Source of the DNA: an uncultured Pontibacter sp. | GTDB taxonomy: Bacteria > Bacteroidota > Bacteroidia > Cytophagales > Hymenobacteraceae | Reading direction: 5' to 3' | Assembly: GCF_947495565.1 (NCBI RefSeq) | Contig: NZ_CANLZM010000007.1 | Span: 1-64,000 of the forward strand | DNA length: 64,000 nt | Shown: in pieces, positions 1-64,000 of the stretch | Numbering within the stretch: position 1 is the stretch's first letter | Layout: the number at the start of each line of letters is the position of its first letter | Translations under genes and position numbers: made by a program | Notes under the pieces: generated by a model | The model's database searches: none | Seen by the model: the letters and a program-made list of their open reading frames with translations, nothing else | What the model was told of the DNA's origin: nothing

Positions 1-288
1 AGTCATAAGTCTGCAAACTTTTCTTACCTGAACAACCGGCACCTGCTTTTTTATTCAATCAAATCAAAACAGCCTCTAAGAATGTCGCCCTTTTGATGAA
101 TCAGAAAAATGCGTAGGTTTAGTAGTGCTTTTGGTAGCAGCAAATATTGAGCTAATTAGGGGCGAGGCACAGCAGCCGTGCACACCATTGAGGAGAACAT
201 ATACGTTATAAGTTCATGCCGCTGCTTAATCTCATTTTTGAGAGGGAATCCTTTACCATAAGCAACCAATTGATAAACATACACACCT
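1..288. other. Intergenic stretch at window edge, no gene seen
   Basis: I see no open frame with coding character here on either strand. The stretch is moderately AT-rich and leads into the small membrane protein gene at 289. It may contain the tail of a transcript that starts left of the window. There is no clear hairpin terminator. Confidence 0.4.
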
Positions 289-594
289 ATGAGCAGCAGC
301 AAAAACACCTGGCTGAACTGGCTATTATACTTTGTTGTTTTTGAGCTAGCAGTATACCTTGGGCTGCAATGGCTGCTATCGGGTATGGGCATGAGCAACC
401 AGTTTCAGGCTGAAAATACAATTGTGCCTAACTGGGTAAAAGCAGTTACGTTTATACTTCTGTACTTGCTCTGTCTGCTGGCCGCCGTTTTGGTGATAAG
501 CAGTTCCGTGCCTGGCAAGCACCGCCCCCACCTGATGCGCTGGGTATACCTGGCTTTGTTAGGAATGGTGGTCATGCTGTTTCTGATATTTTAA
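289..594 (+). CDS. Small hypothetical membrane protein (101 aa)
   Basis: Unrecognised family. Three hydrophobic segments are visible at about residues 8-31, 50-72 and 84-101, with a short charged loop (GKHRPH) between the second and third, so an inner-membrane protein is expected. The gene ends only a few bases before the next gene on the same strand, which suggests co-transcription. A shadow frame on the other strand (156-398) overlaps it but has no family features. No function can be assigned from sequence. Confidence 0.65.
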   Translation: MSSSKNTWLNWLLYFVVFELAVYLGLQWLLSGMGMSNQFQAENTIVPNWVKAVTFILLYLLCLLAAVLVISSSVPGKHRPHLMRWVYLALLGMVVMLFLIF

Positions 595-622
595 ATTAAT
601 GCAAGATTCTATACATTCTGGT

Positions 623-1372
623 ATGCTAAAGACAAGAAACCTACTAACCACAGTGCTCTGCCTCCTGCTGGGCTATACCGCCTTTGGCCAGACAGACAAC
701 GGACAGGGCCGCTACTTTTTACAACTGCAGGACGGCCGAACCTTCTACGGCAACAAGCTGCAGTATAAATCACCGCTTTTCAAATCAAACCACTTCCTTC
801 TCGACGACTCCCTAAAGTTTAACCCGAGCATGGTGAATGTTTACCAAAACGATGATGGCTTTTTTGCTCGTGTTGATGCCGGAAGCAGGTATGACTCTTT
901 TGCCAAGCGCCTGACCGATGGGCCGCGCATAGACAGATTTTATACTACCCGCACCTATTATGACGGCGGTTATGGCTACTCGCCTTACGGCTACGGGTAT
1001 GGCATGCCGCGCACCAACCGTAAGCGCATCTACTTTTTCTCAAAAGACAACGGACCGCTCTATGTTATGGATTTTGATAACCTGGAGACAGCCCTTGCAG
1101 ACAATGCCTCTAGTATGGCGCTGCTGCAGCGTTATAAGAGAGACAAGTTAATCAATACCGGAGTGTCTATTGTGGGAGCCGGCTTATTGGCTGTAGGCGC
1201 AGTTAAGTCTATCAGCAACTCGCAGGAGGTAAACGGCAGCACAAACCTGAGAATCAACCCGCTGATGTATGCCGGAGCGGGCGTACTGGGCGCGCAGCTG
1301 ATTATAAACCTTTTCCAGAAGGACAAGCTCACGCAGGCTATGGAAGTATATAATTACCAGCTACAGCAATAG
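623..1372 (+). CDS. Hypothetical exported protein with Gly/Tyr-rich segment
   Basis: Family not recognised. The chosen ATG at 623 gives a clean signal peptide (LLTTVLCLLLGYTAFG, then Q). An in-frame ATG at 599 would add eight residues before it. The mature protein has a soluble N-terminal half and a Gly/Tyr-rich stretch around YYDGGYGYSPYGYGYG. The C-terminal part has two glycine-rich hydrophobic segments (near VSIVGAGLLAVGAV and YAGAGVLGAQLI) that could be membrane hairpins. It lies directly downstream of the three-TM protein, so the two may form a small envelope operon. A hairpin terminator follows the stop codon. Confidence 0.7.
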   Translation: MLKTRNLLTTVLCLLLGYTAFGQTDNGQGRYFLQLQDGRTFYGNKLQYKSPLFKSNHFLLDDSLKFNPSMVNVYQNDDGFFARVDAGSRYDSFAKRLTDGPRIDRFYTTRTYYDGGYGYSPYGYGYGMPRTNRKRIYFFSKDNGPLYVMDFDNLETALADNASSMALLQRYKRDKLINTGVSIVGAGLLAVGAVKSISNSQEVNGSTNLRINPLMYAGAGVLGAQLIINLFQKDKLTQAMEVYNYQLQQ

Positions 1373-1378
1373 CAACAG

Positions 1379-1408
1379 AGGCCGGGGCTAACAGTTCCGG
1401 CCTTTTTT
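1379..1408 (+). terminator. Rho-independent terminator after the exported protein gene
   Basis: A 7-bp stem, AGGCCGG (1379-1385) with CCGGCCT (1397-1403), is followed by a T run that continues directly into a TATACTT heptamer. It lies between convergent genes and touches the stop of the minus-strand MmcQ-like gene. Confidence 0.8.
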
Positions 1409-1760
1409 ATACTTCTATCCCCAACTCTTTCTGCACTTTCTTCGGCAGCTTACCAGCCACTAAATAATACGACTCCCGCACATACTTTTCCCACTCCTGC
1501 GGCTGCAGATAATTTAGATCACCTAAGGCAACCCACTTATGCCTTGCCATGTAAGGTGCCGGGCAAAAACCGGGTCTGCTGCTCATCTCCTCAAATTCTT
1601 CTGGGTTAACTTTAAATGATGCCGAAACAGGTGTTTTATCAAGCCCCACAACCAGAAACATTTTCTCGGCTACGCAAAAGCACAGGTCGTGCTCCCACTT
1701 TATACTTTCAGTTACGCCTGGTAGCTGCCGGCAAATTTCCTGTAGGTCTTCTATCTTCAT
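1407..1760 (-). CDS. MmcQ/YjbR family protein
   Basis: A 117-residue protein of the MmcQ/YjbR (DUF419) family, whose members have a CyaY-like fold and are often described as DNA-binding. Typical features are the N-terminal LPGVTES and KWEHDLCFCVAEKMF segments, the FKVNPEEFEEM segment, and the HKWVAL and ESYYLVAGKLPKK motifs near the end. Length is normal for the family. The gene stands alone on the minus strand, convergent with the upstream pair. Cellular role is poorly known for the family. Confidence 0.9.
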   Translation of the reverse strand: MKIEDLQEICRQLPGVTESIKWEHDLCFCVAEKMFLVVGLDKTPVSASFKVNPEEFEEMSSRPGFCPAPYMARHKWVALGDLNYLQPQEWEKYVRESYYLVAGKLPKKVQKELGIEV

Positions 1761-1829
1761 AAGTTTAAATTGTGTGAGCCCGAAAGCAGCAATTTATACT
1801 TTTGGGCTGAATGGCAAAGCTGATTTTTG

Positions 1830-1837
1830 TAGCTTTG
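1830..1837 (+). promoter_or_regulatory. -7 box TAGCTTTG upstream of hydrolase gene
   Basis: The octamer matches the Bacteroidota -7 consensus TAnnTTTG and lies 35 bp before the ATG at 1873. A good -33 TTG element is not obvious at the usual spacing, so this is a moderate call. Confidence 0.45.
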
Positions 1838-1872
1838 GCTAAAACACCTCCATCACCGAACCGCAAACTTCT

Positions 1873-2595: not shown

Positions 2596-3026
2596 TTACT
2601 TTTCTACCCGCATTGCCAAACAGCATTTCTCGAACAATAAAAAGTATACTTATAGCCGCCTCTGTGGCATTATGCCTCAGCTCCTGCGCCACCACTGCCC
2701 CAGGCTTCGGCGAGAAAGGCTATACAGAAGAAGGAAAAGCCTCGTACTACGGCCGCAAGTTTCAGGGCCGGAAAATGGCTAACGGTGAGCGCTACCGACG
2801 CAGCAAACTAACCGCAGCACACAAAAAACTGCCTTTCGGAACCCAGGTGGTCGTAACGAACCTGCAAAACAATAAAACTGTAAAGGTAAAAATAACTGAC
2901 CGTGGCCCATTTGTGCGAGGCCGTATTGTAGATTTGTCTGAAGCCGCAGCAAAGCGTGTGGACATGATGGATGATGGCGTAGTACCCGTCCGGGTGAAGG
3001 TAATAAAGACGCCGCGTATAAAGTAA
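2592..3026 (+). CDS. RlpA-like septal ring lytic transglycosylase family lipoprotein
   Basis: A 144-residue protein with a lipoprotein-type signal (ALCLSSC, lipid-carrying Cys near residue 32) and a double-psi beta-barrel RlpA domain in roughly residues 45-140. The conserved core is visible: GKASYYG..F.GR.MANGE, LPFGT.V.V.N and the ITDRGPF segment with the catalytic-type Asp. RlpA proteins cleave glycan strands lacking stem peptides at the division septum, but there is no SPOR domain here, so septal targeting is unproven. The start overlaps the hydrolase stop by ATGA. Confidence 0.9.
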   Translation: MITFLPALPNSISRTIKSILIAASVALCLSSCATTAPGFGEKGYTEEGKASYYGRKFQGRKMANGERYRRSKLTAAHKKLPFGTQVVVTNLQNNKTVKVKITDRGPFVRGRIVDLSEAAAKRVDMMDDGVVPVRVKVIKTPRIK

Positions 3027-3123
3027 ACAGCGGGGCTGCCTAATTATTTTTAAGCTACACTAGGCCAATCACATACGTTCACCCTATATTACAAGAGTTT
3101 CTCTAAAACTCCGCCCGTTATAG

Positions 3124-3154
3124 TTGCCTTTTACTTGTTTTGTATATAAATTTG
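3124..3154 (+). promoter_or_regulatory. Bacteroidota promoter fused to the start codon
   Basis: A -33 TTG (3124-3126), 20 bp of spacer and a -7 box TAAATTTG (3147-3154) fit the Bacteroidota consensus well. The ATG at 3158 follows after only three bases, so the transcript should be leaderless or nearly so. Confidence 0.6.
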
Positions 3155-3157
3155 TGC

Positions 3158-3535: not shown

Positions 3536-3598
3536 TTTCTTTTTGATCACGATACTTTAGGCCAAGGCTGGCTTCTATACTATAATAGCCATTGGAGG

Positions 3599-4354
3599 CT
3601 AGATAAAGTCGCTCAACAATGCCAGCACAAGCCCTAGTAGCGTAGCCACCAGTTTATTGCGGTTAAAGTGGTGATCGGGACTTGTTTCGAAGAGGATAGT
3701 AGTGGAGATATGCAGAAAATTGCCTGCCACCAAACCGGTAAGTGCTGTAAAAACCAATCCGCCCGCTGCCTCCTCTGATAGTATCGTGTTACTTACTACA
3801 ATACCCAACGGAGATCCTACGGCAAATATCAACAACCATAGAAATGCCTTCCTAAAATTCTCTAACCTCGACAACAGCACCGACATAAGCGCAAAGGCTG
3901 CCGGAATATGATGCAGCGCAATGCCGAGCAGCACCAGGTAAAAGTTATCCGAGCCGTGTGTATGCCCGCTGCCATGGTTATGCCCTTGCTCTACAAGTAT
4001 ACTTCCTTCCAGAAAAGAGTGCACAAACAAGGACCCGAGCAGCAGAAACGGCATAGAATCAGTACGCCCATCATGATGGTGGTGAATATGGCCGTGCTCC
4101 ACCCCGTGTGAGAAAAGCTCCAGCACCAGCTGCAGAAAAAAACCGGCCAGTACCCAATAACCCACACGATAAGGGCTGTTACTGCTATTTAACAGCACAT
4201 CGGGCAACAGGTGTATAATGGTGATGGTAAACAGGTAGGAGCCACTGAAAGCCAGAGCCATCTTAAGCCATTTGGTTTTGTTAGGCGGAAAAACCTTCAC
4301 CAAAAAGCCTGAGAGCACTACTGTAAAGAAAAGCGCAAGTATAGCTATGATCAT
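3599..4354 (-). CDS. ZIP family divalent metal transporter
   Basis: A 251-residue membrane protein with about eight hydrophobic segments and the ZIP signature. HLLPD is at about 48-52, HSFLEG at 112-117, the metal-site helix LHHIPAAFAL at about 147-156 and GNFLHISTTILFE in a later helix. Two histidine-rich cytoplasmic stretches (about 84-95 and 124-134) are typical metal-sensing loops. It probably imports zinc, iron or another divalent metal across the inner membrane. It starts nine bases after the methyltransferase gene ends, so the two are likely co-transcribed. Confidence 0.92.
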   Translation of the reverse strand: MIIAILALFFTVVLSGFLVKVFPPNKTKWLKMALAFSGSYLFTITIIHLLPDVLLNSSNSPYRVGYWVLAGFFLQLVLELFSHGVEHGHIHHHHDGRTDSMPFLLLGSLFVHSFLEGSILVEQGHNHGSGHTHGSDNFYLVLLGIALHHIPAAFALMSVLLSRLENFRKAFLWLLIFAVGSPLGIVVSNTILSEEAAGGLVFTALTGLVAGNFLHISTTILFETSPDHHFNRNKLVATLLGLVLALLSDFI

Positions 4355-4363
4355 GCAGGGGCT

Positions 4364-5107: not shown

Positions 5108-5134
5108 GCGAGGGGGCTAAAAGCAATTATGTTG

Positions 5135-6387: not shown

Positions 6388-7245
6388 TTAGAAAGCCTTC
6401 AGGCTCAAATCTATACTTCTGTTGGAGTGCGTAAGCGCGCCTACCGAGATAAAGTCAACACCACACTCAGCCACAGCACGTATGGTTTCCTCGGTTATAC
6501 CACCAGAGGCCTCTACTTCATACTTGCCTCCGATCATGGACACCGCCTCACGCATCATATCCGTACTCATGTTATCGAGCATAATCCGATGAATGCCTCC
6601 TGTACCCAGCGCCTCCTGCACCTCCTGCAGGTTTCGAGTCTCCACCTCAATTCTAAGGTCTTTGCCTTTCTCCTGCAGGTATTTCTGCGTAGCGGTTATG
6701 GCTTTGCGTACACCGCCGGCGTAATCTACGTGATTATCCTTCAGCATCACCATGTCGTACAGTCCGAAGCGGTGGTTGTGGCCTCCACCTATCACCACGG
6801 CCCATTTTTCCATTATCCGGAAGTTGGGAGTGGTTTTGCGGGTATCCAGCAATTTAGTATTAGTGCCCGCTATTAAGCTTGCCATGTAATTGGTGTAGGT
6901 GGCTATGCCGCTCATGCGCTGCATGCAGTTTAACACCAGGCGCTCGGCAGTAAGTATACTTTGGGCTTTGCCTTTTACGGTAAATGCCACATCACCATAC
7001 TTCATTCGGTCGCCATCGCGCATCAACACATCCAGCTGCAGGTCAGGGTCTACGGCCTTAAAGATATAGCCGGCCAGCTCCACACCTGCCAATATTCCAT
7101 CGCCCTTCACCAGCAGGCGCGCCTGGTTCTGCGCATCGGCAGGTATGGAGGCAAGCGAGGAGTGGTCTCCGTCGCCTACATCCTCGGTTAGCGCCCTAAC
7201 GATAAACTCGTTTATACTTTTTTTGGTCAGATATGTTAGTTTCAC
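6388..7245 (-). CDS. nadC: Nicotinate-nucleotide pyrophosphorylase (carboxylating), NadC
   Basis: NadC (quinolinate phosphoribosyltransferase) converts quinolinate and PRPP to nicotinate mononucleotide, CO2 and pyrophosphate in de novo NAD synthesis. The 285-residue length is normal. Visible motifs are ERLVLNCMQRMSGIAT (101-116), LLDTRKTTP (132-140), GGGHNHR (153-159) and LKDNH (168-172). The initiator is GTG, and the predicted -7 box ends four bases before it, so the mRNA is probably leaderless. The neighbouring DUF4783 gene is a frequent companion of nadC in this phylum. No nadA or nadB is in the window. Confidence 0.96.
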   Translation of the reverse strand: MKLTYLTKKSINEFIVRALTEDVGDGDHSSLASIPADAQNQARLLVKGDGILAGVELAGYIFKAVDPDLQLDVLMRDGDRMKYGDVAFTVKGKAQSILTAERLVLNCMQRMSGIATYTNYMASLIAGTNTKLLDTRKTTPNFRIMEKWAVVIGGGHNHRFGLYDMVMLKDNHVDYAGGVRKAITATQKYLQEKGKDLRIEVETRNLQEVQEALGTGGIHRIMLDNMSTDMMREAVSMIGGKYEVEASGGITEETIRAVAECGVDFISVGALTHSNRSIDLSLKAF

Positions 7246-16528: not shown

Positions 16529-16663
16529 CTACTTAAGTTTTATTGCTGTAGTGGCACAGCCTGCAGTGGCGGTAAGAGCCTAATTGTGGCTAAACTCCCG
16601 CCTTACCGACCAATACTTCCTTCAAAAGTAAGCATTTTTTCTTTATGCTGATAACTCCCAATA

Positions 16664-17344
16664 TTATAGCAGGATGAAAATGCCGATAAAGAACAGCAGC
16701 TGCACCACATACACGTAAGGCGCCAGTTTATTGTTTTTATAGATGGCTGCCTGCTGAAAGTATACCTGCAGCGCCAGGGCCACTAAAAACCAGCCTATAA
16801 AGTTTGATAAGGGAATGTGGCCTCCATGCCAGCTCCAGAAGTCAAAGGCCATAGCCACGGGCTCTATAAAGTAATCGAGCAGCACCATTAGTGTTGCGCC
16901 AAGTATGGCTTTGGCGAACCACGGCAGAGGCGTATAGTTACTCAGGTGGCCGGTAGTATAGACCAGCATCAGCCAGTTCAGACCGATCAGCAGGGGCACA
17001 TCCCATATTTTTGTTCCCAGCGCTTGCCCGTAATTATAATCGCCGAACAGCAGCCCGGTGTGCACTCCCAGCACCTCTGAGAAAAAGCCAACAGCAAACA
17101 CTACTGCGGCAAAAAGTATAAACCCGACATTCCAGCGCCTATGGAAAGCAAAAAGCAGTGTATTGGTAAGCAGCAGGTTCATGGGGGTGAGTTTCTGGAA
17201 GTACTCCGGCCTGCCACTGAAAAGCAAACCCCAGAACCCGACGGTATGAAAGATAACAAGTACAGCCACCGCAAGCGGCAGAGCGTATTTTTTATATTTA
17301 CCTACAACAGGTGTTATAGCGGGTAAGGCTTTAGTGTCGGGCAT
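16664..17344 (-). CDS. Carotenoid biosynthesis protein, CruF-like hydratase
   Basis: An integral membrane protein of about 226 residues with seven or so hydrophobic segments and the CruF/DUF422 pattern: FFSEVLGVHTGLLFGDYNYG, VPLLIGLNWLMLVY and DYFIEPVAMAFDFWSW. Members of the family (carotenoid 1,2-hydratases such as CruF) add water to the end of acyclic carotenoids or monocyclic precursors. The ATG at 17344 overlaps the desaturase stop by 14 bases, so the two are translationally coupled. An upstream in-frame ATG at 17377 is less likely. Confidence 0.87.
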   Translation of the reverse strand: MPDTKALPAITPVVGKYKKYALPLAVAVLVIFHTVGFWGLLFSGRPEYFQKLTPMNLLLTNTLLFAFHRRWNVGFILFAAVVFAVGFFSEVLGVHTGLLFGDYNYGQALGTKIWDVPLLIGLNWLMLVYTTGHLSNYTPLPWFAKAILGATLMVLLDYFIEPVAMAFDFWSWHGGHIPLSNFIGWFLVALALQVYFQQAAIYKNNKLAPYVYVVQLLFFIGIFILL

Positions 17345-18839
17345 TTTGTTTAGATGGTTTAGCGGAAGAGGGAGCAACAGCAGGGGCCAGTTCGCCTACA
17401 ATTTTGGCTGATAGCAGGCACAGCGGAATACCACCGCCCGGGTGCACGCTGCCGCCGCAAAAGTATAAACCCTGCAGTTTGGAGCTGAAGTTTGGGTGGC
17501 GCAGAAAGGCAGCCATGCGGTTGTTAGAGCTGCTGCCGTACAAAGCGCCGCCAAACGACGAGGTGCGGCTCTCGATCAGCAGCGGGTCCAGCACCTGCTC
17601 CTGCTCTATCAGCGCCTCCACATCAGTCTGCAGCATACTGCTTAGCTTCTGTAGCACCGCCTGCCGGGTAGATATGGTTAGCTGCTGCCAATCCTGCCCC
17701 TGGTTATGCGGCACGTTTACCATCACAAACCAGTTTTCGCTGCCTTCGGGCGCGTCCTGCTCATCTGCTTTGGAGGTGATATTGATGTACACAGTCGGGT
17801 CCGGGCTAACGGTTTTATACTTGAAGATGTGCTCAAACTCAGCTTTATAATCCTGGCTGAAGAAGATGTTGTGCACATGCAGCTGCGGAAACTCCCGTTT
17901 AATGCCCCAGTAAAAGATAAGCGCCGAGCTGGAACGCGGCTGCTGCAGCGTTTTCTCCGGTGCCGGCTGGTTGGGCAAGAGCCTGCGGTAAGTCGGTACC
18001 ACGTCCATATTGCTCACCACCACATCGGCTTTATACTTACGCCTGCTGGTTTCTACTCCAACAGCTTTGTTGTTTTCGGTGATGATGCGTTCTACTGGCT
18101 CGTTATATTTGAACTCTACGCCCAATTCTTCGGCTAGTTTAATTAGGCTCGCCACTATACTATAAATGCCACCCTCCGGGTAAAAAGCTCCTATGTTGTG
18201 CTCGAGGTGCGGAATGATATTAAGTGTGCCGGGAGCCTGGTAGGGGTCAGAACCGTTGTAGGTGGCAAACCGATCGAGCAGCTGCACAAAGCGCGGGTCG
18301 GAGAACTGGCTGGCGTTGGCCTGGTGCATGGAGGTAGTCAGGCCAAGGTCGGAGAGGCAGCTCAGCGCCTTCAGCACATCGGGGCTCAGGTATGTATCCA
18401 GCTTGTGCAGCGACTTCTGCAAAAAAGTATCCGCTGTGCCTTTGTAGAGCCGTGCGCTTTTCTGCAGCGCCTCCTGCACCGCCTGCTTCGGCACGCCCAG
18501 CTGCTGCTCTGCCTCCTGCGCAAATTTACCGGCATCGGCGTAAGCTTTTACGTGGCTGCCGTCTGGCCAAAAATAGTGTGTGATCGGGTCGAGGCGGGTG
18601 TAGCGGAAGTAGTCGGAGGGGGTGCGGCCGGCCAGGGTAAACAGCTCATCCACGAGGTGCGGCAGCGTAAACAGCGACGGGCCGGCATCAAACCTGTACT
18701 TGCCCAGCCAGAACTCGTGCATCTTGCCGCCAAACGTATGGTTAGCCTCCAGCACCGTTACCTCGTAGCCCTTCACGGCCAAACGCACGGCTGCGGCAAT
18801 GCCTCCTATACCTGCCCCTATGATGGCTGCTTTCCTCAT
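17331..18839 (-). CDS. CrtI-family carotenoid desaturase, possibly CrtD-type
   Basis: A FAD-dependent desaturase of 502 residues from the ATG at 18839. The dinucleotide-binding motif GAGIGGIAAAVRLA begins at residue 7. GGKMHEF, the GPSLFTLP segment and the C-terminal LYFCGGSVHPGGGIPLCLLSAKI are hallmarks of the CrtI/CrtD/CrtN class. The overlap with a CruF-like hydratase favours a 1-hydroxycarotenoid 3,4-desaturase (CrtD), because CruF and CrtD act in sequence, but phytoene desaturase (CrtI) cannot be excluded without a tree. An earlier in-frame ATG at 18893 is possible but spoils the family N-terminus. Confidence 0.9.
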   Translation of the reverse strand: MRKAAIIGAGIGGIAAAVRLAVKGYEVTVLEANHTFGGKMHEFWLGKYRFDAGPSLFTLPHLVDELFTLAGRTPSDYFRYTRLDPITHYFWPDGSHVKAYADAGKFAQEAEQQLGVPKQAVQEALQKSARLYKGTADTFLQKSLHKLDTYLSPDVLKALSCLSDLGLTTSMHQANASQFSDPRFVQLLDRFATYNGSDPYQAPGTLNIIPHLEHNIGAFYPEGGIYSIVASLIKLAEELGVEFKYNEPVERIITENNKAVGVETSRRKYKADVVVSNMDVVPTYRRLLPNQPAPEKTLQQPRSSSALIFYWGIKREFPQLHVHNIFFSQDYKAEFEHIFKYKTVSPDPTVYINITSKADEQDAPEGSENWFVMVNVPHNQGQDWQQLTISTRQAVLQKLSSMLQTDVEALIEQEQVLDPLLIESRTSSFGGALYGSSSNNRMAAFLRHPNFSSKLQGLYFCGGSVHPGGGIPLCLLSAKIVGELAPAVAPSSAKPSKQNARH

Positions 18840-37120: not shown

Positions 37121-37161
37121 AAAGTATGGCCGGAGCAGTTTATACTTGCCGGCCATACTTT
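37121..37161. repeat. Hairpin with TATACTT loop between two small hydrophilic genes
   Basis: A perfect 13-bp stem, AAAGTATGGCCGG (37121-37133) and CCGGCCATACTTT (37149-37161), has a loop holding TATACTT. Two more heptamers follow within 35 bases. There is no T tract after the hairpin on the minus strand, so it may be an attenuating or processing structure and not a plain terminator. Confidence 0.7.
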
Positions 37162-37191
37162 GCAATCAATTTTATACTTAGGTTTTATACT

Positions 37192-37491
37192 TTAAGAGCC
37201 TCGCCCCTCGTCTTCAGTACGCATGTTGTCTGGCGGCTGGATGCCATCGTCGGCAAAGTCGTTTACACCGGTGGCGCTTGGGCCTTCCGAGGCAGTATCA
37301 CTGCCATAGCCCTCTTTGCCGTCGCGGTTACCAAAGCCGCCGCGTTGGTGCTCATTCTTAGGCGGGTCAGCGCCTGGAATAATGTGCCCGGCACGCATTT
37401 CTTCGTTACCCGTATCTTCGTCTATCTCTCGGAAGCCTCGCTTGTTTGGAAGCTGGTTCTTCACTTTACTATCTTCTTTATCTTCAGCCAT
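37192..37491 (-). CDS. Small hydrophilic acidic protein (99 aa)
   Basis: Unrecognised family. It is strongly charged and rich in Asp, Glu, Gly, Asn and Lys, with no Cys and no hydrophobic run (MAEDKEDSKVKNQ, then GYGSDTASEGPSATG), so disorder is likely. Paired with the 79-residue hydrophilic protein and preceded by a GSP39-like SDR, it looks like part of a general-stress gene group. That role is inference from composition and context only. Opposite-strand frames are shadows. Confidence 0.65.
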   Translation of the reverse strand: MAEDKEDSKVKNQLPNKRGFREIDEDTGNEEMRAGHIIPGADPPKNEHQRGGFGNRDGKEGYGSDTASEGPSATGVNDFADDGIQPPDNMRTEDEGRGS

Positions 37492-37571
37492 AATTGTATT
37501 CTTTTAATTAAACTGGCACCCCTTTTAGAAGGCGTGTATAGTTGGGTTTACTCTTTTCAGGCTGCTTTGGT

Positions 37572-38429
37572 TTAGGTTGTTACCATCTCACCGCCATTTA
37601 TATGCATAATCTCACCTATGGTAAAGGCCGAATCCTCGGAGGCCAGATATACGTAAGCCGGGGCCACCTCAGATGGTTGTCCGGCACGTTTCAGAAGGGT
37701 TTTCTGTCCGAACTCCGCTACCTTATCCTCATCAAAAGAGGCAGGGATGAGCGGTGTCCAGATAGGGCCTGGCGCCACACCGTTCACACGGATTTTTTTA
37801 TCGGCTACCATTTGCGCTAAAGTACGGGTAAAAGTAAGTATGGCTCCCTTGGTGGAGGAGTAGTCGAGCAGCAGCTTGTTGCCATGGTAGGCGGTCACGG
37901 AGGTGGTATTGATGATAGTGCTGCCTTCTTTCATGTGGTTCAGGGCCTCTTTCACAAAGTAGAACATCGAGAAGATATTGGTGTCGAAAGTGCGTTTCAG
38001 CTGCTCCTCGGTAATATCCCGGATGTCTTCTTTGGCGTGCTGCTCCCCAGCATTGTTCACCAGCGTGTCCAAGCGGCCAAGTTCCTTTACGGTTTGCTGC
38101 ACGGCCTCGCGGCAGAAAGCCTCTTTGCCCACGTCACCTGAGATCAGCAGGCACTTGCGGCCCTCTTTCTCCACCATCTGCCTGGTGTCTTGGGCATCTT
38201 TGTCCTCGTTGAGGTAAACAATGGCGATATCGGCTCCCTCGCGGGCGAAATGCACCGCTACGGCACGGCCAATTCCGCTGTCGCCGCCGGTAATGAGGGC
38301 TACTTTGCCCTTTAGTTTATCACTGCCTTTGTAGCCATCGCGTATTATCTCCGGTTCTGGTGTCATTTTATGCTCTTTGCCCGGCTGCTCCATCTCCTGC
38401 GGCGGAAAAGATTTTGGTTTGTTTTCCAT
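37572..38429 (-). CDS. SDR family oxidoreductase, general-stress YhdF/GSP39-like
   Basis: A 285-residue short-chain dehydrogenase. After a roughly 40-residue lead with PGKEHKMTPEPEI, typical of the GSP39/YhdF/YghA subfamily, come the cofactor motif TGGDSGIGR (47-55), NNAG, the catalytic Ser in TTSVTAY, and YSSTK with the catalytic Tyr and Lys. GPIWTPLIP is also typical of this subgroup. It probably reduces small aldehydes or ketones with NADP(H). The neighbouring small hydrophilic genes support a stress context. Confidence 0.94.
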   Translation of the reverse strand: MENKPKSFPPQEMEQPGKEHKMTPEPEIIRDGYKGSDKLKGKVALITGGDSGIGRAVAVHFAREGADIAIVYLNEDKDAQDTRQMVEKEGRKCLLISGDVGKEAFCREAVQQTVKELGRLDTLVNNAGEQHAKEDIRDITEEQLKRTFDTNIFSMFYFVKEALNHMKEGSTIINTTSVTAYHGNKLLLDYSSTKGAILTFTRTLAQMVADKKIRVNGVAPGPIWTPLIPASFDEDKVAEFGQKTLLKRAGQPSEVAPAYVYLASEDSAFTIGEIMHINGGEMVTT

Positions 38430-46011: not shown

Positions 46012-47391
46012 TTACCCAAACAAGCTTGAGAAGACCTCTTCTAAACGACCATAGGCATGTATGTTGATAGAGAACTTGCTCAGGTCAACGCCTTTTTTAT
46101 TATACTTTGAGATGTAAATATCGGTGAAGCCCAGCTTTTCGGCCTCCGTAATGCGGTTCTCCACGCGGTTTACGGCACGCACCTCGCCACCCAAGCCAAC
46201 CTCGGCAGCAAAGCAGGCCGTGTTCGGAATTGAAATATCCTCGAAAGACGAAAGTATGGAGGCACAAATTGCCAGATCCAGCGCTGGATCCTCGACTTTC
46301 AGGCCGCCGGCAATGTTCAGGAACACGTCTTGAGCACCCAGGCGGTAGCCACCGCGTTTTTCCAGCACGGCCAGCAGCATGTTCAGGCGCTTGGCATCAA
46401 AGCCGGTGCTGGAGCGCTGTGGCGTGCCATAGGTAGCGGGGCTAACCAGGCTCTGCACCTCAATCAGCAGCGGGCGGTTACCCTCCAGCGTAGCTCCAAT
46501 GGAAATGCCGCTAAACGCATCCTCGCGCTGCGTAATCAAAATCTCAGACGGGTTGCTGACCTCACGCAGCCCAGAGCCCATCATTTCGTAAATCCCTAAC
46601 TCGGAGGTAGAGCCGAAGCGGTTTTTGGTGGTGCGCAAAATGCGGTAGGTCATGTGGCGGTCGCCTTCGAAAGTAAGCACCGTATCTACCATGTGTTCCA
46701 GAATCTTTGGCCCGGCCAGGTTTCCCTCTTTAGTAATATGGCCTATCAGAAATACCGGCGTACCGCTCTCTTTGGCGAACTTCAGCAACTCCGCCGTACA
46801 CTCGCGCACCTGGCTCACGCTACCCGCGCCCGCCTCGATAAAAGAGGAATGCAGCGTTTGGATAGAGTCGATGATGAGCACCTGCGGCCGCACCAACTCT
46901 ATTTGCTTAAAGATGTTCTGTGTGCCGGTTTCTGTAAGTATAAAGCAATCGGAGGTTTGAGCTGCGAGGCGCTCGGCACGCATTTTTATCTGCTGCTCGC
47001 TTTCCTCACCGCTTACGTACAGCACTTTAAGGCCGCGCAGACTCAGAGCAATTTGCAGCATCAGCGTACTTTTACCTATGCCCGGCTCCCCGCCGATTAG
47101 CACCATAGAGCCCGGCACAATGCCGCCGCCAAGTACGCGGTTCAGCTCCTGGTCCTGGGTTACGATGCGCTGCTGCTCCTGGTAGCTGATGTCGGCAATG
47201 GGTTTGGGCTTGTTGGCAACTTGCGCTGTGCTGCTGCCTACTTTCCAGGCGGTGGTAGGGGTAACCTCCTCGCGCTGCACTACCTCCTCTACATAAGTGT
47301 TCCACTCGCCGCATGCCGGGCACTTGCCAATCCATTTGGCAGATTGCGCGCCGCAGTTCTGGCAGAAGTAGGATGTTTTTATCTTAGCCAT
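46012..47391 (-). CDS. radA: DNA repair protein RadA (Sms)
   Basis: RadA is a RecA-like ATPase and helicase that promotes branch migration in homologous recombination and natural transformation. The 459-residue protein has an N-terminal zinc finger (Cys10, 13, 24, 27), Walker A GGEPGIGKST near residue 98, the RadA-specific KNRFG motif (TKNRFGSTSELG) and a C-terminal Lon-protease-like domain with GLGGEVRAVNRVENRI. It is monocistronic, with a strong terminator. Confidence 0.97.
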   Translation of the reverse strand: MAKIKTSYFCQNCGAQSAKWIGKCPACGEWNTYVEEVVQREEVTPTTAWKVGSSTAQVANKPKPIADISYQEQQRIVTQDQELNRVLGGGIVPGSMVLIGGEPGIGKSTLMLQIALSLRGLKVLYVSGEESEQQIKMRAERLAAQTSDCFILTETGTQNIFKQIELVRPQVLIIDSIQTLHSSFIEAGAGSVSQVRECTAELLKFAKESGTPVFLIGHITKEGNLAGPKILEHMVDTVLTFEGDRHMTYRILRTTKNRFGSTSELGIYEMMGSGLREVSNPSEILITQREDAFSGISIGATLEGNRPLLIEVQSLVSPATYGTPQRSSTGFDAKRLNMLLAVLEKRGGYRLGAQDVFLNIAGGLKVEDPALDLAICASILSSFEDISIPNTACFAAEVGLGGEVRAVNRVENRITEAEKLGFTDIYISKYNKKGVDLSKFSINIHAYGRLEEVFSSLFG

Positions 47392-47560: not shown

Positions 47561-50479
47561 CTACACCGCCTGCTCTACCGGCAGTTGCTGAAAGTATACT
47601 TTAAAAGTAGTGCCCTTTCCGAGTTTGCTGCTTACCTCTATCTTGCCTCCGTTGTTCTCGATAATACGCTTTATGATGTACAGACCGATACCTGTACCCT
47701 CCACGTGCGTGTGCAGGCGCTTAAACATTGTAAACAGCTTATGCTGCTGCTCCTTTTTGATTCCCAAACCGTTATCCTGCACCTCCAGCACCACATACTG
47801 ATCCTCTTCGTAAGTTTTTAAGCTAACTTCAGGCTTACGGTCCGGAGCTTTATACTTGACGGCGTTGCTAACCAGGTTATAGATGATGCTGCGTAGGTTT
47901 TTACGAGCATAGATAATGTTTTCTACCTGCAAATCTATCGTTACTGTTGCTTCCGCCTCGTTTATGGCAACATCAAGGTCTAAGAGTATATCCTGAAGCA
48001 TGCTATTGAACGAGAGCGGCTCTAAAGACGACTGCAGCTCTTTCTGCACCTTGGTGATCTCCGCCAAGTCAGCAATGGTGCCTTTAAGTTTGTTGATGGA
48101 GTGCTGCACCATGTCCAGCACCTTCATGTCTTCCTCCTCCAACTTACCCTGCAGGATATCGCGCAGCAGCGTTGCCAAACCTTCCATATTAGCGATGGGA
48201 GATTTAAGGTCGTGGGAGGCGGTGTATACAAAGCTGTCGAGGTCGTTGTTAATGCGCAGCAGCTCATTGTTTTTGCCGCTCAGCTCATCGTTGGTTATCA
48301 AGAGTGCTTTCCGGGCGTTTACCAGTTCCGTCACCTCTACGGCAAACAGCAGCACTGCCTCAATTTTCCCATTCGCATCTATTAAAGGCTGGTATACCAG
48401 GTTGAAGTACCCGTGCACAATCTCCCCGTCTTTGTCTAGTTCTATGGCTGTAGGGACCTCGTTGCCCACAAAAGGTTCGCCTGTCTCAAAAACCTTCTCC
48501 AGGCGTTTAAAGAAGCCGCGACCTTCTTCCTCTGAGTGGGCCTCGTACACTGTTTTCCCTACCAACGGGCGGTTGCCATACAGCTTACGGTACTGCGGGT
48601 TTGCCAGCACGTACTGGTAATCAGGATAGCGGACCAAGCCTACCACTGCAGGCACTTCCAGAAACAGCTTCTGCAGTAATTCGGCGTTCTGCTTTACTTT
48701 ACGCTCTGCATCCTTTATCTCTGTTATATCAATCACAGAACCGATAAAACCCTGAAAATCGTCGTTAGCCCCGAAGCGCGGCGTATTGGTAGCTACCACC
48801 CAACGGTACTCCCCATCGAAGCGGCGCATTCTAAACTCTACTCTAAAGGCGCTATGCTCACTGATCGCTTGTTTCGTTAACTTTTCTTTCCTCTCTATAT
48901 CATCCGGGTGCACCACTTCTTTCCAGCTCATGTTAATGGTATCTTCAAAGTTGATACCTGTAAAATCAAGCCACTGCTTGTTTACGTACATGAAGTTGGT
49001 GGCATCATCTGTGATTTTGATCATCACGGGTGCATTGTCGGCCATGGTACGGAAACGGGCCTCACTCTCGATGATCGCCTGCTGTGCCTGCCTCTCATCA
49101 GTGATATCGCGTACCTCAATAATAGCATAGCTCTCGCTGCCGCTTTCTTCTATTGGCTGCACCGTGCAGGATACGTTAAAAAAGCTGCCGTCTTTCCGGA
49201 TAAACATATCTTCATAGCCGCGCAGCGGTTTTGTGGTGGATATGGCTATTTGCATCGGGCATTTATCGGCCGGAAAGGCAGAGCCGTCCAGGTGCTTGTG
49301 ATGCACCATTTCATGCAGTGTTTTCTTCTGCATTTCCTCAAGCGTATAACCGGTCATGGCTTCGGCAGCCGGATTCATAAATGTACAATAGCCTTTGGAG
49401 TCTAGTATAAAAAGTGCTGCTGTGGCATTATCGGTAATGGTTTGCTTCAGGCGGTTAGAACGGCGTGTGTTAGAGAGCGACCAAATGATAAAGAACATGA
49501 GCAGACCTATAATTAAGCCGCCCGTAAGTATAAAGTATGGTAGCTCCGAATCGGCTGATTTGCCGAAGGTATCTTTTGCCGAAACATACAAGCGCCAGGT
49601 ATGGTTGCCAACCGTAATGGTGCTTAGGTTACTGTGCTCCCTCTTGCCACTGCCGTAGAAGGGTGTAGGGCTGGTACTAAAGAGCAGGTTGTCCGCTGAT
49701 GGCTCAGCACCGTCGTACACCTCTATATCAATGTCATTGAAATCTTTTGTGAGAACGGCCCGCATAAGGTCCTTGGCCCGGAAGGGGCTGTACACAAAGC
49801 CTTTTATAAGCCGCTGCCGCTCCTTGATGGACTCTGGCTCTGCGTTGTTATAATATATAGGCAAGTATATCAGAAAGCCGGACTGTTCGTCCTGACCAGT
49901 CTCCTGCACAAGCCGCAGCTTACCCGACAGCGTAGGCTGCCTGGTATCGCGGGCAATGCGCATAGCCGACTGCCGCACCGAGTCACTGAACATATCATAC
50001 CCGAAGGCGCGAAGATTGCGGCCAGTAAAAGGCTCCAGGTAAATAATTGCGGTATAAATGCTCCTTTTGCCTGCCGGGGTTATGCTGTAGTCTGTAAAGC
50101 CCTCATTTCTGATCTGCTGCACGTGCTGCTTCACCTGGTTTGGCCGCACCACATGTGTGTAGCCGAAGCCTTGAAGGCCAGGGTAGCTCTCTTCCAGCTT
50201 CAGGGTTTTATAGTAGCTATTCCAGTCGCGGCGAGTTACCGTGTCAGAGGCAATGAACATGGCTTTGCCTCCGGCCAGAATCTGGATATAATCGCGCATG
50301 CGCTTGTCTATCGCTTCTGTAACCTGCTGCGTGCGCATAGAGAATAATTTGGCGCTCCTTTCCTCTGCTTTCTTTTTAGTTTCAGAATAAATAAAGAGGG
50401 TAAGCAAGAAAATAAGCAGGAAAGAGAAAATCGCGATAAAATAATCTCTTATAAAAGAAGCCAGCTTGGCAAGTTTCAT
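47561..50479 (-). CDS. CHASE- and multi-PAS-containing sensor histidine kinase
   Basis: A 972-residue membrane histidine kinase. Order: first transmembrane helix at about 13-31; extracytoplasmic CHASE domain at about 70-290 (YPGLQGFGYTHVV, then GRNLRAFGYDM); second helix at about 322-343; three PAS domains at about 350-470, 475-600 and 605-725; HisKA with the phosphorylated His in YTASHDLKSPIANM; and a HATPase domain with N box NAVKYK and G boxes DNGLGIKKEQ and GTGIGLYIIKRI. The CHASE domain senses a small extracellular ligand. No response regulator gene is adjacent. Confidence 0.93.
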   Translation of the reverse strand: MKLAKLASFIRDYFIAIFSFLLIFLLTLFIYSETKKKAEERSAKLFSMRTQQVTEAIDKRMRDYIQILAGGKAMFIASDTVTRRDWNSYYKTLKLEESYPGLQGFGYTHVVRPNQVKQHVQQIRNEGFTDYSITPAGKRSIYTAIIYLEPFTGRNLRAFGYDMFSDSVRQSAMRIARDTRQPTLSGKLRLVQETGQDEQSGFLIYLPIYYNNAEPESIKERQRLIKGFVYSPFRAKDLMRAVLTKDFNDIDIEVYDGAEPSADNLLFSTSPTPFYGSGKREHSNLSTITVGNHTWRLYVSAKDTFGKSADSELPYFILTGGLIIGLLMFFIIWSLSNTRRSNRLKQTITDNATAALFILDSKGYCTFMNPAAEAMTGYTLEEMQKKTLHEMVHHKHLDGSAFPADKCPMQIAISTTKPLRGYEDMFIRKDGSFFNVSCTVQPIEESGSESYAIIEVRDITDERQAQQAIIESEARFRTMADNAPVMIKITDDATNFMYVNKQWLDFTGINFEDTINMSWKEVVHPDDIERKEKLTKQAISEHSAFRVEFRMRRFDGEYRWVVATNTPRFGANDDFQGFIGSVIDITEIKDAERKVKQNAELLQKLFLEVPAVVGLVRYPDYQYVLANPQYRKLYGNRPLVGKTVYEAHSEEEGRGFFKRLEKVFETGEPFVGNEVPTAIELDKDGEIVHGYFNLVYQPLIDANGKIEAVLLFAVEVTELVNARKALLITNDELSGKNNELLRINNDLDSFVYTASHDLKSPIANMEGLATLLRDILQGKLEEEDMKVLDMVQHSINKLKGTIADLAEITKVQKELQSSLEPLSFNSMLQDILLDLDVAINEAEATVTIDLQVENIIYARKNLRSIIYNLVSNAVKYKAPDRKPEVSLKTYEEDQYVVLEVQDNGLGIKKEQQHKLFTMFKRLHTHVEGTGIGLYIIKRIIENNGGKIEVSSKLGKGTTFKVYFQQLPVEQAV

Positions 50480-51831: not shown

Positions 51832-51892
51832 TGGCTGCTATACTTTAAGCTAAACCTCAAGTATAACGCTGTACGTAAGTATATTTTTTTTG

Positions 51893-51900
51893 TAGTTTTG
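51893..51900 (+). promoter_or_regulatory. -7 box TAGTTTTG for fumC
   Basis: TAGTTTTG matches TAnnTTTG and lies 40 bases before the fumC ATG. Several TATACTT/AAGTATA heptamers surround it. Confidence 0.45.
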
Positions 51901-51940
51901 CTGCAGACAAACTGAACCGTTAAACCTAAGTATAAACCAT

Positions 51941-53338
51941 ATGCAAGTTCGCGTAGAGAAAGACACGATGGGCCCAATTGAGGTGCCTGCAGACAAATAC
52001 TGGGGCGCGCAGACACAGCGTTCAAGAGAAAACTTTACTATCGGTGGCCAGCGCATGCCGCAGGAGGTAATCGAAGCTTTTGCTATACTTAAGAAATCTG
52101 CCGCGCAGGCTAACGCGCAGCTGGGTGTTTTGGCACAGGATAAAGCTGATATCATCTCTAAAGTATGCGATGAGATTTTGGAAGGCAAACTGAACGACGA
52201 GTTTCCGCTGGTAGTATGGCAGACCGGCTCAGGTACGCAGTCTAACATGAACGTGAACGAAGTGGTTGCCAACCGTGCGCACGTGCTATTAGGCGGCCAG
52301 TTATCTGACGAGAAAAAGCAGATCCACCCGAACGACGACGTAAACAAGTCGCAGTCATCTAACGATACCTTCCCGACAGCCATGCACATTGCCGCTTACA
52401 AGAAAGTGGTGGAGCACACGCTGCCAATGGTGAAGAAACTGCACGACACGCTGAAGGCGAAATCAGAGGAGTTTATGGATGTGGTGAAGATCGGCCGCAC
52501 GCACCTGATGGACGCTACACCGCTGACGCTTGGCCAGGAGCTTTCTGGCTACGTGAAGCAGCTGGAGTACGGCATGAAGGCGCTGAACAATACGCTGGAC
52601 CACCTGAAAGATTTAGCACTGGGAGGTTCTGCAGTAGGTACAGGCCTGAACACACCGGAAGGTTACGCAGAGCTTGTGGCTGATAAAATCTCTCAGTACG
52701 CTGGACATGAGTTCCGCACGGCCCCTAATAAATTTGAGGCGCTTGCCGCACACGATGCCATGGTAGAAACCTCAGGCGCCCTGAAGCAGCTGGCAGTAAG
52801 CCTGATGAAGATTGCCAACGATATTCGTTTGCTGGCTTCCGGCCCTCGCTCTGGTATTGCGGAAATCCTGATCCCTGAAAATGAGCCGGGCTCTTCTATC
52901 ATGCCGGGTAAAGTAAACCCAACGCAGGCTGAGGCGATGACAATGGTTTGTGCGCAGGTAATCGGCAACGACGTAGCTATCTCGGTAGGGGGCATGAACG
53001 GCCATTTTGAGCTGAATGTGTTTAAGCCGGTAATGATTTACAACCTGCTGATGAGCGCCCAGCTAATCGGCGACGCCTGTGATTCTTTTGACAAGCACTG
53101 CGCTGTAGGTATTGAGCCAAACACGGCCCGCATCAAAGAAAACCTGGAGAACTCACTGATGCTGGTAACGGCCCTGAACCCGCACATTGGCTACGACAAC
53201 GCAGCTAAAATCGCGAAAAAGGCGCATAAAGAAGGAACCACCCTTCGCCAGGCAGCTATTGAGCTTGGCCTGCTCACCAACGAGCAGTACGACGAGTGGG
53301 TACGCCCAGAGGATATGATCGGCAGCCTGAAGAAGTAA
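51941..53338 (+). CDS. fumC: Class II fumarate hydratase
   Basis: FumC hydrates fumarate to malate in the TCA cycle without an iron-sulfur cluster. The 465-residue length is normal. Motifs are [12 protein letters not shown] at the N-terminus, [17 protein letters not shown], the active-site [17 protein letters not shown] and the superfamily signature [11 protein letters not shown]. It is monocistronic, ending at a terminator. An ATA-CTT pair at F-A-I-L-K creates one TATACTT inside the gene. Confidence 0.97.
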
Positions 53339-55847: not shown

Positions 55848-55925
55848 ACAGGGCAGCTGCATACATTATAAGTATAATCCGTACAAACTCCTGCTCTTAT
55901 ACTTCGCTGATAAACTGTTTTATAC

Positions 55926-56306
55926 TTGCGCACATACTTTAAAAAACGCTACAACAGCTTCCGGTTTGCCTTCCGGGGGATAAATGCTGCCGTCCGGTCA
56001 GAGCCGCACATGCGGTTGCACGTACTGTCGGCAATAGTAGTGCTGCTGCTGGGGGCAACCTTTGGCGTTTCTAAAACGGAGTGGTGTTTACTGGCGGCAA
56101 GTATAGGGTTTGTTATAACGGCAGAGATTATAAACACCGCTATAGAGACAGTGGTAAACCTGGTGTCGCCGCACTACAACCCCTTAGCCGGCAAAGCCAA
56201 GGATCTGGCTGCTGGCGCTGTACTGATGGCAGCCGTTACAGCCGCTGTAGTAGGCACTATTATTTTTCTGCCATACTTTCTGGAGTTTGCCGAAGTATAC
56301 TTTTAG
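55926..56306 (+). CDS. Diacylglycerol kinase family protein (DgkA type), TTG start
   Basis: A 126-residue integral membrane kinase of the prokaryotic DagK/UdpK family, with three hydrophobic segments. The signature EIINTAIETVVNLV is at residues 67-80, followed by AKDLAAGAVL. Members phosphorylate diacylglycerol or undecaprenol. The start is TTG at 55926, because the conserved N-terminal RFAFRGI would be lost from the first ATG. The TTG lies inside a TATACTTG string, so the heptamer overlaps the start codon. Confidence 0.9.
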   Translation: MRTYFKKRYNSFRFAFRGINAAVRSEPHMRLHVLSAIVVLLLGATFGVSKTEWCLLAASIGFVITAEIINTAIETVVNLVSPHYNPLAGKAKDLAAGAVLMAAVTAAVVGTIIFLPYFLEFAEVYF

Positions 56307-61400: not shown

Positions 61401-61534
61401 GAGTTATAGTAGTTTTGGTGTTTTACGGATGTAATAGCTAAGCTATAGAATTTATAGCTAAAACCGTGCTGTTTTTATACTTCGGTTCTATTTGTAGCTA
61501 ATTAACAATAACAGTAACAGTTAAATTGCAAGGT

Positions 61535-62554: not shown

Positions 62555-62617
62555 TATTATTTATAATTGCACATTAATCTACGTTACAAGAACCTTTTCT
62601 TAATTAGGTACTATTTT

Positions 62618-63847
62618 ATGAAGTTAATCAAGTATTTATCGGCTGCGGTTGTGGGAGGCATGTTGCTTACTGCCTGTGGTAAGGGCGGCCAGCCAACCAG
62701 CACAAACCCAGGCGGTTACAGCTCTGCTACGGGCGCCGAGTATGGCGAAGAAGAAGATGCTTTTGATGTGGCCGATTATGCGGAGTTCCCACAGGGGCCC
62801 GGCCTTATCTTTATTGAAGGCGGCCGTACCGTACTTGGCTCTATGGAAGAGGATATCGCTATGACGCGTGACAACGTGGAGCGCACAGTAACAGTAGCCT
62901 CTTTTTATATGGACGAAACGGAGGTAGCTAATATTCACTGGTTAGAGTACCTGCACGACCTGAAACGCGATTCTTTGCCGGAGGTATACCAAGCAGCTCT
63001 TCCAGACACAACTGTTTGGTCTCAGCAGCTTTCCTTCAACGACCCATACGTAACTTATTATCTGCGTTACCCAGGTTTCCGCTTCTTCCCGGTTGTGGGT
63101 GTAAGCTGGTTACAGGCTAACGACTTCTGCGTATGGCGCACAAATAAAGTTAACAACATTCTTGCCCAGCAGGCCAGTGGCGGCGGCGGCAGAAGAGGCT
63201 TGTTTGGCCGTGGTGGTAACGAGGAGGCTGTAGAAGGGGAGAGACCGTCTATTGAATCTGGCTATGTATTGCCAAACTACCGTCTCCCAACAGAGGCAGA
63301 GTGGGAATACGCTGCACAAGCTATGATCGGCACGCAGTACACTGAAGACGAAAACCAGAACAACCGCCGCTTGTATCCATGGGACGGCCACCAGGTGCGT
63401 AACCCGTATGGCAAAGAGATGGGCAAGTTTATGGCCAACTTCAAGCGTGGCCGCGGTGACTATGCTGGTATTGCTGGCTCACTAAATGATGGCGCCATGA
63501 TCACTGACTACATCTATGCATATCCGCCAAACGATTTCGGCCTTTACAACATGGCTGGCAACGTAAACGAGTGGGTGCAGGATGTGTACCGTCCACTTTC
63601 TTTCCAGGATGTGGAAGACCTGAACCCTTTCCGTCGCGACGGTTTCCTGGATGAGTCTACCAACTATGACTCTAGCGAAGGTTACCACTCTCTTGTAAGC
63701 GACGAGGTTCGTGTTTACAAAGGAGGCTCTTGGAAAGACGTAGCTTACTGGCTGTCTCCGGGTACTCGCCGCTTTATGGCTCAGGATTCTTCAACAGCCA
63801 CTATCGGTTTCCGTTGCGCCATGATTAATGCTGGCTCTAACAAGTAA
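62618..63847 (+). CDS. gldJ: Gliding motility / T9SS lipoprotein GldJ-like (SUMF1 fold)
   Basis: About 409 residues from the ATG at 62618. Lipobox LLTAC (Cys20), then an acidic spacer and a formylglycine-generating-enzyme (SUMF1) fold: GPGLIFIEGGRTVLGSMEED, FYMDETEVANIHWLEYL, VGVSWLQANDFCVWR, YRLPTEAEWEYAA, GLYNMAGNVNEWVQDVYRP, YKGGSWKD and TIGFRCAM. The VYRPLSFQDVEDLNPFR segment is like GldJ. GldK is the paralogue, but gldL, M and N do not follow, which favours GldJ. A Gly/Arg-rich insert (GGGGRRGLFGRGG) is unusual. GldJ stabilises the motility and secretion motor in the periplasm. Confidence 0.85.
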   Translation: MKLIKYLSAAVVGGMLLTACGKGGQPTSTNPGGYSSATGAEYGEEEDAFDVADYAEFPQGPGLIFIEGGRTVLGSMEEDIAMTRDNVERTVTVASFYMDETEVANIHWLEYLHDLKRDSLPEVYQAALPDTTVWSQQLSFNDPYVTYYLRYPGFRFFPVVGVSWLQANDFCVWRTNKVNNILAQQASGGGGRRGLFGRGGNEEAVEGERPSIESGYVLPNYRLPTEAEWEYAAQAMIGTQYTEDENQNNRRLYPWDGHQVRNPYGKEMGKFMANFKRGRGDYAGIAGSLNDGAMITDYIYAYPPNDFGLYNMAGNVNEWVQDVYRPLSFQDVEDLNPFRRDGFLDESTNYDSSEGYHSLVSDEVRVYKGGSWKDVAYWLSPGTRRFMAQDSSTATIGFRCAMINAGSNK

Positions 63848-63869
63848 GACTAATTAATACTTACATACT

Positions 63870-63900
63870 AAAAAGCCCGGGCTCACGCTTCGGGCTTTTT
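63870..63900 (+). terminator. Terminator of gldJ
   Basis: A 10-bp stem, AAAAAGCCCG (63870-63879) and CGGGCTTTTT (63891-63900), is followed by ATTTTTATACTTT, so the T tail runs straight into a TATACTT heptamer. Confidence 0.9.
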
Positions 63901-63916
63901 ATTTTTATACTTTATA

Positions 63917-64000
63917 ATGAGCAAGAATAACCAAACCTATAAGATCATTTTCCGCTTTTACAGTGATGTTTTTGAGCAGGAAATGGTAGAGACACTGTGG
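63917..64000 (+). CDS. DUF4265-like protein, cut by the window end
   Basis: Only the first 28 codons are in the window. They read MSKNNQTYKIIFRFYSDVFE and then QEMVETLW. The K.IFRFYSDV..QE.VETLWA pattern is like the N-terminus of DUF4265 proteins as I remember them. It starts 17 bases after the gldJ terminator. The rest lies outside the window. Confidence 0.6.
   Translation, partial: MSKNNQTYKIIFRFYSDVFEQEMVETLW

Follow-up and report, generated by a model that had tools for sequence, protein, structure and literature searches.

The first 64,000 nt of contig NZ_CANLZM010000007.1 from an uncultured Pontibacter sp. (the whole stretch analysed, hereafter the window) raise the question of why a single heptamer, TATACTT, recurs along both strands and across genes and intergenic DNA alike. 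The answer proposed here, based on comparison of sequences, is that Pontibacter probably has a family of DNA uptake sequences, with TATACTT as its dialect in this genome. An exact count gives 126 copies dispersed over positions 1..64000 (69 on the + strand and 57 on the - strand), next to the ca. 125 that the initial annotation had counted against 8 to 10 expected, and the more than tenfold excess claimed there is confirmed by 100 dinucleotide-preserving shuffles of the window, which hold 8.1 copies on average (standard deviation 2.8, maximum 16). Against a second-order Markov background TATACTT ranks first among the heptamers of the window (126 vs. 13.2 expected, z 31); among octamers the first place goes to TTATACTT (74 vs. 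3.7) and among nonamers to TTTATACTT, an extension of TATACTT (49 vs. 1.3).

The same word fills the rest of the genome, whose 4,524,119 bases in 44 contigs contain 8,095 TATACTT (4,120 + 3,975), with a mean spacing of 559 bp, and 436 copies of the reversed string. The Markov correction for this genome, which rests on a 344-kb sample of the 4.52 Mb, had been named beforehand as the check that could overturn the observation; it leaves a 9.9-fold excess, with 674 copies vs. 68 expected. Alignment of 645 sites indicates that the core is most often preceded by T (58%) or C (18%), with T as the second base before it in 44% of cases, and followed by T (44%) or G (24%), the consensus being best given as YTATACTTK. 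Only one of the 21 one-base variants, CATACTT, is strongly enriched (253 vs. 53, 4.8-fold), the remaining 20 ranging from 0.7- to 2.1-fold. This resembles the tolerance that a DNA-binding protein would show more than it does simple decay.

Heuristic gene calls place 34 copies of the window in intergenic DNA (7.9 kb in all) and 92 inside genes (56.1 kb); the earlier rough tally was of ca. 40 copies in ca. 7 kb of intergenic DNA. The reported spread over coding and non-coding DNA in mixed orientation is borne out by counts on both strands, inside and outside genes. With the same type of calls over 324 kb of the genome, density rises from 1.65/kb in genes to 4.31/kb between them (2.6-fold), reaching 7.8/kb between convergent genes vs. 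2.7/kb between divergent ones, and sites inside genes occur in every one of the six frames, 251 of them in the direction of the gene and 217 in the opposite one. A tie to terminators, also noted from the start, was recovered: 13 of the 67 terminator-like hairpins detected in 344 kb (by a scan run per strand, in which two-way terminators count twice) carry TATACTT no more than 25 nt 3' of the stem, in many cases merging with the T run, and two carry it in the opposite orientation within the same zone, where 1.7 to 3.7 copies are expected. Since terminators account for just a minor share of the sites, they were rejected as the cause of the motif. Even spacing was rejected as well, the gaps being distributed as if at random with the exception of close pairs.

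How far the word extends beyond this genome was addressed by comparing it with 49 other Pontibacter genomes, one per species, over 20 kb around radA (sms), a gene located at 46012..47391 on the - strand of the window (TIGR00416, 586 bits) and matched in all 50 genomes. Among the RadA matches listed for named genomes, the best four are from Pontibacter (91-96% identity), which places the window in this genus of the Hymenobacteraceae. Words were ranked as heptamers and octamers, and some genomes were re-read with 60 kb. TATACTT leads in 19 genomes including that of the window, TATACCT (often as CTATACC) in 12 and TATAGTT in five; three have mixed TATACTT and TATAGTT (G027, G033 and, less evenly, G071), two use other spellings when 60 kb are read from each (centred on TATATA in G069 and YATACC in G070) and nine show no clear word in the 20 to 60 kb sampled from each. 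Genome-wide, TATACCT occurs 5,748-9,303 times in its 12 genomes and 720-3,132 times in the other 38, TATAGTT 11,674-13,168 times in its five genomes, 8,118, 6,094 and 3,531 times in the mixed three and 532-1,969 times in the other 42, and TATACTT, counted in 37 of the 50 genomes, 4,114-11,818 times in 17 of the genomes in which it leads. In 22 genomes from other families of the order, TATACTT is found at 0.4-1.8 times the frequency of its reversed control.

These dialects follow phylogeny. In a tree built from six proteins of the radA region (58 rows, with 8 outgroup rows that fill only 28% of the columns), the 12 TATACCT genomes form one branch and the five TATAGTT genomes form another with two of the three mixed genomes, both with a support of 100. 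Mapping the dialect labels on this tree requires 10 changes vs. a mean of 27.2 for shuffled labels, with none of 200 shuffles giving a value as low. Three of the nine wordless genomes branch lowest in the tree and, because the other six sit in two later groups, loss or replacement of the word is likely. The wordless genomes are also larger, with a median of 5.8 vs. 4.6 Mb (9 vs. 39 genomes, G069 and G070 being left out and relatedness not being corrected for). Four of them were read over 60 kb: G064 and G024 are without anything dense, G002 has a weak TATAGTT excess (33 vs. 7.7) and G026, together with G068, displays a different and longer element instead of a TATA word. This element, of ca. 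20 bp around ATTATTCTAA, was seen in 19 copies in 80 kb of G068 and G026 (L127, L129, L187 and L188).

Conservation of sites between related species, a check asked for at the outset, was observed. Sites of the dialect word are kept more often than other heptamers of equal G+C number in 18 of 18 same-dialect pairs, from whichever genome the comparison starts, these pairs sharing genomes and not being independent. Examples are 16 of 22 sites kept between the window genome (G000) and G023 (73% vs. 24% for the control) and only 7 of 23 between G036 and G020 (30% vs. 18%); the wordless pair G025-G064 keeps one of five (vs. 48%). Some orthologous sites differ in dialect in place between G033 and G031: at 50 TATACTT sites in the former, the latter has TATAGTT in 8 cases and TATACTT in 11.

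The distribution within single cells is also uneven. Three second replicons were sampled, those of G021, G020 and G001 (60 kb each), and contain 18, 15 and 11 copies vs. 11.2, 10.1 and 7.3 expected, or together 44 copies in 180 kb vs. 28.6, whereas the excess in their chromosomal samples is 15.6-, 10.3- and 11.8-fold. Relaxase and ArdC domains are encoded on the second contigs of G021 and G020, with TraG in addition on that of G021; that of G001 is a second contig whose plasmid nature is not proven. Because these replicons stay near expectation while their own chromosomes are 10- to 16-fold above it, a mutational cause acting on all cellular DNA is unlikely, unless the second replicons are recent arrivals. 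Overall, the word, its dialects and their distribution are solid.

What would produce such a pattern is a preference for self DNA during transformation. A receptor that belongs to the competence machinery and sits at the surface or in the periplasm would bind the word in free DNA and favour its import, after which a ComEA-like protein, ComEC, DprA and RecA would bring the DNA in and recombine it. Word-bearing fragments would enter more often, so that alleles with the word would replace alleles without it, and copies would build up wherever the chromosome tolerates them until the gain is offset by mutation and coding constraint. If the specificity of the receptor changed, a new dialect would begin, with old sites being converted or lost. 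The uptake preference, the receptor and the recombination drive are all elements that we infer.

Transformation genes are present in the genus. ComEC (PF03772), a ComEA-like protein and DprA (PF02481) have matches in 50 of 50 genomes, the ComEA-like protein having three HHH_3 stretches, a TIGR00426 match above cut-off and PDB relatives that include ComE operon protein 1. The uptake-sequence systems of Pasteurellaceae and Neisseriaceae work with pilus machinery, and a search of the 50 genomes with the secretion/pilus ATPase family PF00437 gave only weak matches in the P-loop region (19-26 bits), pilin families not being searched; above the 24.9-bit cut-off, matches were obtained in three of the 50 Pontibacter genomes (just over it) vs. 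13 of 14 control genomes. Because these are weak P-loop cross-matches only, a ComP-type pilin receptor is unlikely, a type IV pilin receptor was set aside, and the reader of the word is more readily seen as a putative pilus-independent receptor. Another candidate receptor, DUF5689, which is found as a domain in RA0C_RS04920, a transformation protein of Riemerella, was rejected: it has matches in 22 of the 50 genomes, 12 in frames of 413-450 amino acids and the other 10 in longer ones of 1,099-1,299 amino acids, and neither set follows the motif. Three of the shorter frames were examined (L163, L162 and L157) and sit, as judged by eye, behind a susD-like gene. The row at L163, on contig C3 of the window genome, consists of a susD-like gene, the DUF5689 protein and a phosphoesterase-like gene (the first and third named by eye), and the DUF5689 protein there has only this domain in common with the Riemerella protein.

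Natural loss of competence offers a test of the uptake sequence proposal, with a mixed outcome. In G022, frameshifts and stops interrupt comEC, the ComEA-like gene and dprA alike, most compared neighbours reading through in one frame; comEC and dprA are broken in G009, and G018 has a short comEC frame of 561 amino acids. The broken genes lie at separate places, namely L181, L182 and L222 in G022 and L219 and L220 in G009. That separate competence genes are broken together in each of G022 and G009 suggests two losses of transformation in Pontibacter. G022 has the lowest ratio of motif to reversed string (8.8) among the 11 genomes counted genome-wide out of 12 in its clade (G062 being left out), the others ranging from 11.7 to 38.5, and the lowest Markov excess of six genomes sampled (4.5-fold vs. 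7.0-15.6). Two finer signs of site decay in G022 were dropped: a three-genome comparison of private sites (20 of 69 in G022 vs. 45 of 98 in G000, but 12 of 51 in G020) had no matching signal in the panel, and an imbalance in one-mismatch sites (24 of 45 vs. 15 of 62, Fisher test) was not borne out by it.

Several observations weigh against an uptake sequence. With broken comEC and dprA, G009 keeps full density (9,303 TATACCT). Around radA, the share of relatives' sites that G022 retains (46%) does not fall below that of G036 (41%) or G001 (37%). All nine wordless genomes have open frames for the three competence genes, and G020, in which these are open too, has only 0.82 copies/kb, yet a normal Markov excess (10.3-fold). 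With nothing beyond weak P-loop cross-matches to the pilus/type II secretion ATPase family, the known type of receptor has no carrier. Clusters of sites in the same direction within 100 bp are not predicted by the uptake model: once overlapping palindromes are left out, such pairs number 113 in the same direction and 36 in opposite directions in G021, and 82 and 63 in the window genome. Finally, some samples display a strand polarity that simple uptake drive does not explain and that others are without. With strand orientation set by local G/C skew only, the ratio of sites on the C-rich to the G-rich strand is 254:145 in G021 and 349:296 in the window genome, a slight lean; it is 466:280 at TATACTT radA loci and 267:157 at TATACCT radA loci, and no lean is seen at TATAGTT radA loci (182:184) or at two more loci of G031 (67:77), the radA loci being one locus in related species and not independent.

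Part of this evidence bears on other explanations. The initial annotation had also drawn a likeness to cyanobacterial HIP1, and an orphan methyltransferase acting with methylation-dependent mismatch repair could in principle make and keep the word, each dialect then reflecting a change of methyltransferase. Replacement of dialects in Pontibacter resembles what is described in portions of PMC4390886, where HIP1 gives way in some cyanobacterial lineages to alternate palindromes with matching methyltransferases. Such elements are palindromic, a property that TATACTT, TATACCT and TATAGTT do not have (the TATATA core of G069, unlike these three main words, is self-complementary), and second replicons of the same cells are nearly devoid of the word, though they may be recent arrivals. 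The initial interpretation is supported; of the two resemblances it proposed, to HIP1 and to the uptake sequences of Pasteurellaceae and Neisseriaceae, the second is preferred on account of the non-palindromic words, and we consider a HIP1-like origin unlikely. Chi sites, too, are short, over-represented and different between groups. A word of this kind, regulating an enzyme of the RecBCD/AddAB type and selected for repair of broken forks, would share these features and could account for the lean towards the C-rich strand in G021, at the TATACTT and TATACCT radA loci and, slightly, in the window genome. Because this lean is present in some species and absent in others, such as those with TATAGTT, Chi fits poorly; density moreover peaks between genes, and several dialects plus wordless genomes in one genus are hard to reconcile with a basic repair signal. 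This explanation is quite improbable.

Binding in the cytoplasm by a protein that organises the chromosome or has some other role, with its sites under ordinary selection, would fit dispersed and conserved chromosomal sites with hardly any excess on second replicons. It accommodates less easily thousands of sites whose spelling changes inside one genus, or a placement that looks permissive because density is highest between convergent and lowest between divergent genes, and it is regarded here as very improbable. As to a compositional, codon or mutational artefact, to which the AT-richness of the word, set in a genome of ca. 49% G+C, might point, the excess holds against a second-order Markov background, in comparison with the reversed string and within each of the six frames, and the word is near expectation on second replicons and in the 22 genomes of other families; this origin is extremely unlikely.

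Whether relatives of Pontibacter have words of their own was also considered. In Hymenobacter wooponensis (L045, G072), CTAGGCCA occurs 4,381 times genome-wide, vs. 33-225 times in 12 relatives, and is a second uptake-sequence-like word in the Hymenobacteraceae. Two other words are dispersed on both strands, with 30 ACCTAGG in 21 kb of Solirubrum puertoriconensis (L017) and 12 ACGTACCT in 21 kb of Fibrella forsythiae (L015). TTATCCACA, which we take to be a DnaA-box-like word, was rejected as an uptake word of Echinicola: 17 and 12 copies cluster within ca. 21 kb at radA (L033 and L059) and, because just 123 and 126 copies are present in the two whole genomes, the excess is local to radA. The repeated word of Roseivirga thermotolerans (L061) was likewise discarded, being part of a 66-bp tandem array at 16622-17950 with 21 copies of the core word.

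Taking the uptake sequence proposal further, we lean towards a broader scheme in which Hymenobacteraceae would tell self from foreign DNA, without type IV pili, by means of short uptake sequences that evolve fast. A non-ComP receptor of the outer membrane or periplasm would read a TATA-centred word that is respelled between clades, the dialects would partly isolate gene pools, and a similar system with CTAGGCCA would have arisen in H. wooponensis. If true, self-DNA recognition would have evolved more than once, the dialects then belonging to a remote lineage that yielded no pilus ATPase in the search made, and the word would provide a handle on the passage of DNA across the Bacteroidota outer membrane. 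Close relatives with two dialects would be cases in which a receptor change is directly testable, and a practical rule is suggested for transforming Pontibacter, which is to place the word on donor DNA.

Within the window, some copies are arranged in ways that deserve mention. On the + strand at 37141..37192, three copies follow one another in the same direction, separated in part by a CATACTT variant, and overlap the start of a putative, mechanically called open reading frame (ORF; 37126-37575). A four-copy cluster (one + and three -) occupies 51839..51934, between an ORF ending at 51831 and another starting at 51941, and a three-copy cluster (one - and two +) at 55870..55927 is mostly located between ORFs. 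At 2642..2651, two copies meet head to head and share TATA, forming AAGTATACTT, which is found again at 3995-4004, 6952-6961, 47592-47601 and 56293-56302.

New here are the clade-specific dialects, the near-absence of the word from second replicons and the failure to find a pilus/secretion ATPase. For uptake sequences in Bacteroidota, nothing on point was found in the open-access literature, most subscription journals and bioRxiv preprints being outside this scope. For transformation in the same phylum, the literature searched led to Riemerella. In R. anatipestifer, transformation depends on ComEC, DprA and an HHH protein, as stated in sections of PMC8459023; all three have counterparts in Pontibacter. 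DUF5689, the family of one essential Riemerella protein, does not follow the motif in Pontibacter. Parts of PMC7965970 report that R. columbina is transformed preferentially by its own DNA, with a k-mer table that is not Markov-corrected and lists A/T-rich words, an uptake word not being established. This preference for own DNA may be counted, by analogy, in favour of an uptake role in Pontibacter.

Compared with better known words, that of Pontibacter is like HIP1 in being very frequent and in having alternate words in some lineages, and differs in that its main words are not palindromic. HIP1 itself is very frequent, palindromic and tied to methyltransferases, according to extracts of PMC4390886. 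With the uptake signal sequences (USS) of Pasteurellaceae it shares the character of a short genome-wide word. These USS are longer than the Pontibacter word. The mean spacing is 559 bp in Pontibacter vs. ca. 1,000 bp for the USS of Haemophilus influenzae, as given in a portion of PMC7811141. Uptake has been measured in Pasteurellaceae, where a minor pilin is predicted as the receptor in PMC12616744, whereas in Pontibacter a minor-pilin-like receptor was not found, pilin families not being searched.

The closest parallel is, by analogy, with the dialects of the DNA uptake sequence (DUS) of Neisseriaceae. Differences exist, since the core is of 7-9 bp in Pontibacter vs. a 10-mer, a pilus ATPase and a ComP-type receptor were not found in the PF00437 search (pilin families not being searched), same-direction clusters are many, and the uptake role is here deduced from sequence. 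As described in passages of PMC3630211, DUS dialects follow phylogeny, Simonsiella muelleri has two dialects in similar numbers, and DUS show permissive intergenic placement, an association with terminators and relatives without the motif. Pontibacter likewise has thousands of copies, dialects that follow phylogeny and two-dialect genomes (G027, G033 and, less evenly, G071), and its word is permissively placed between genes, linked to terminators and missing in some relatives.

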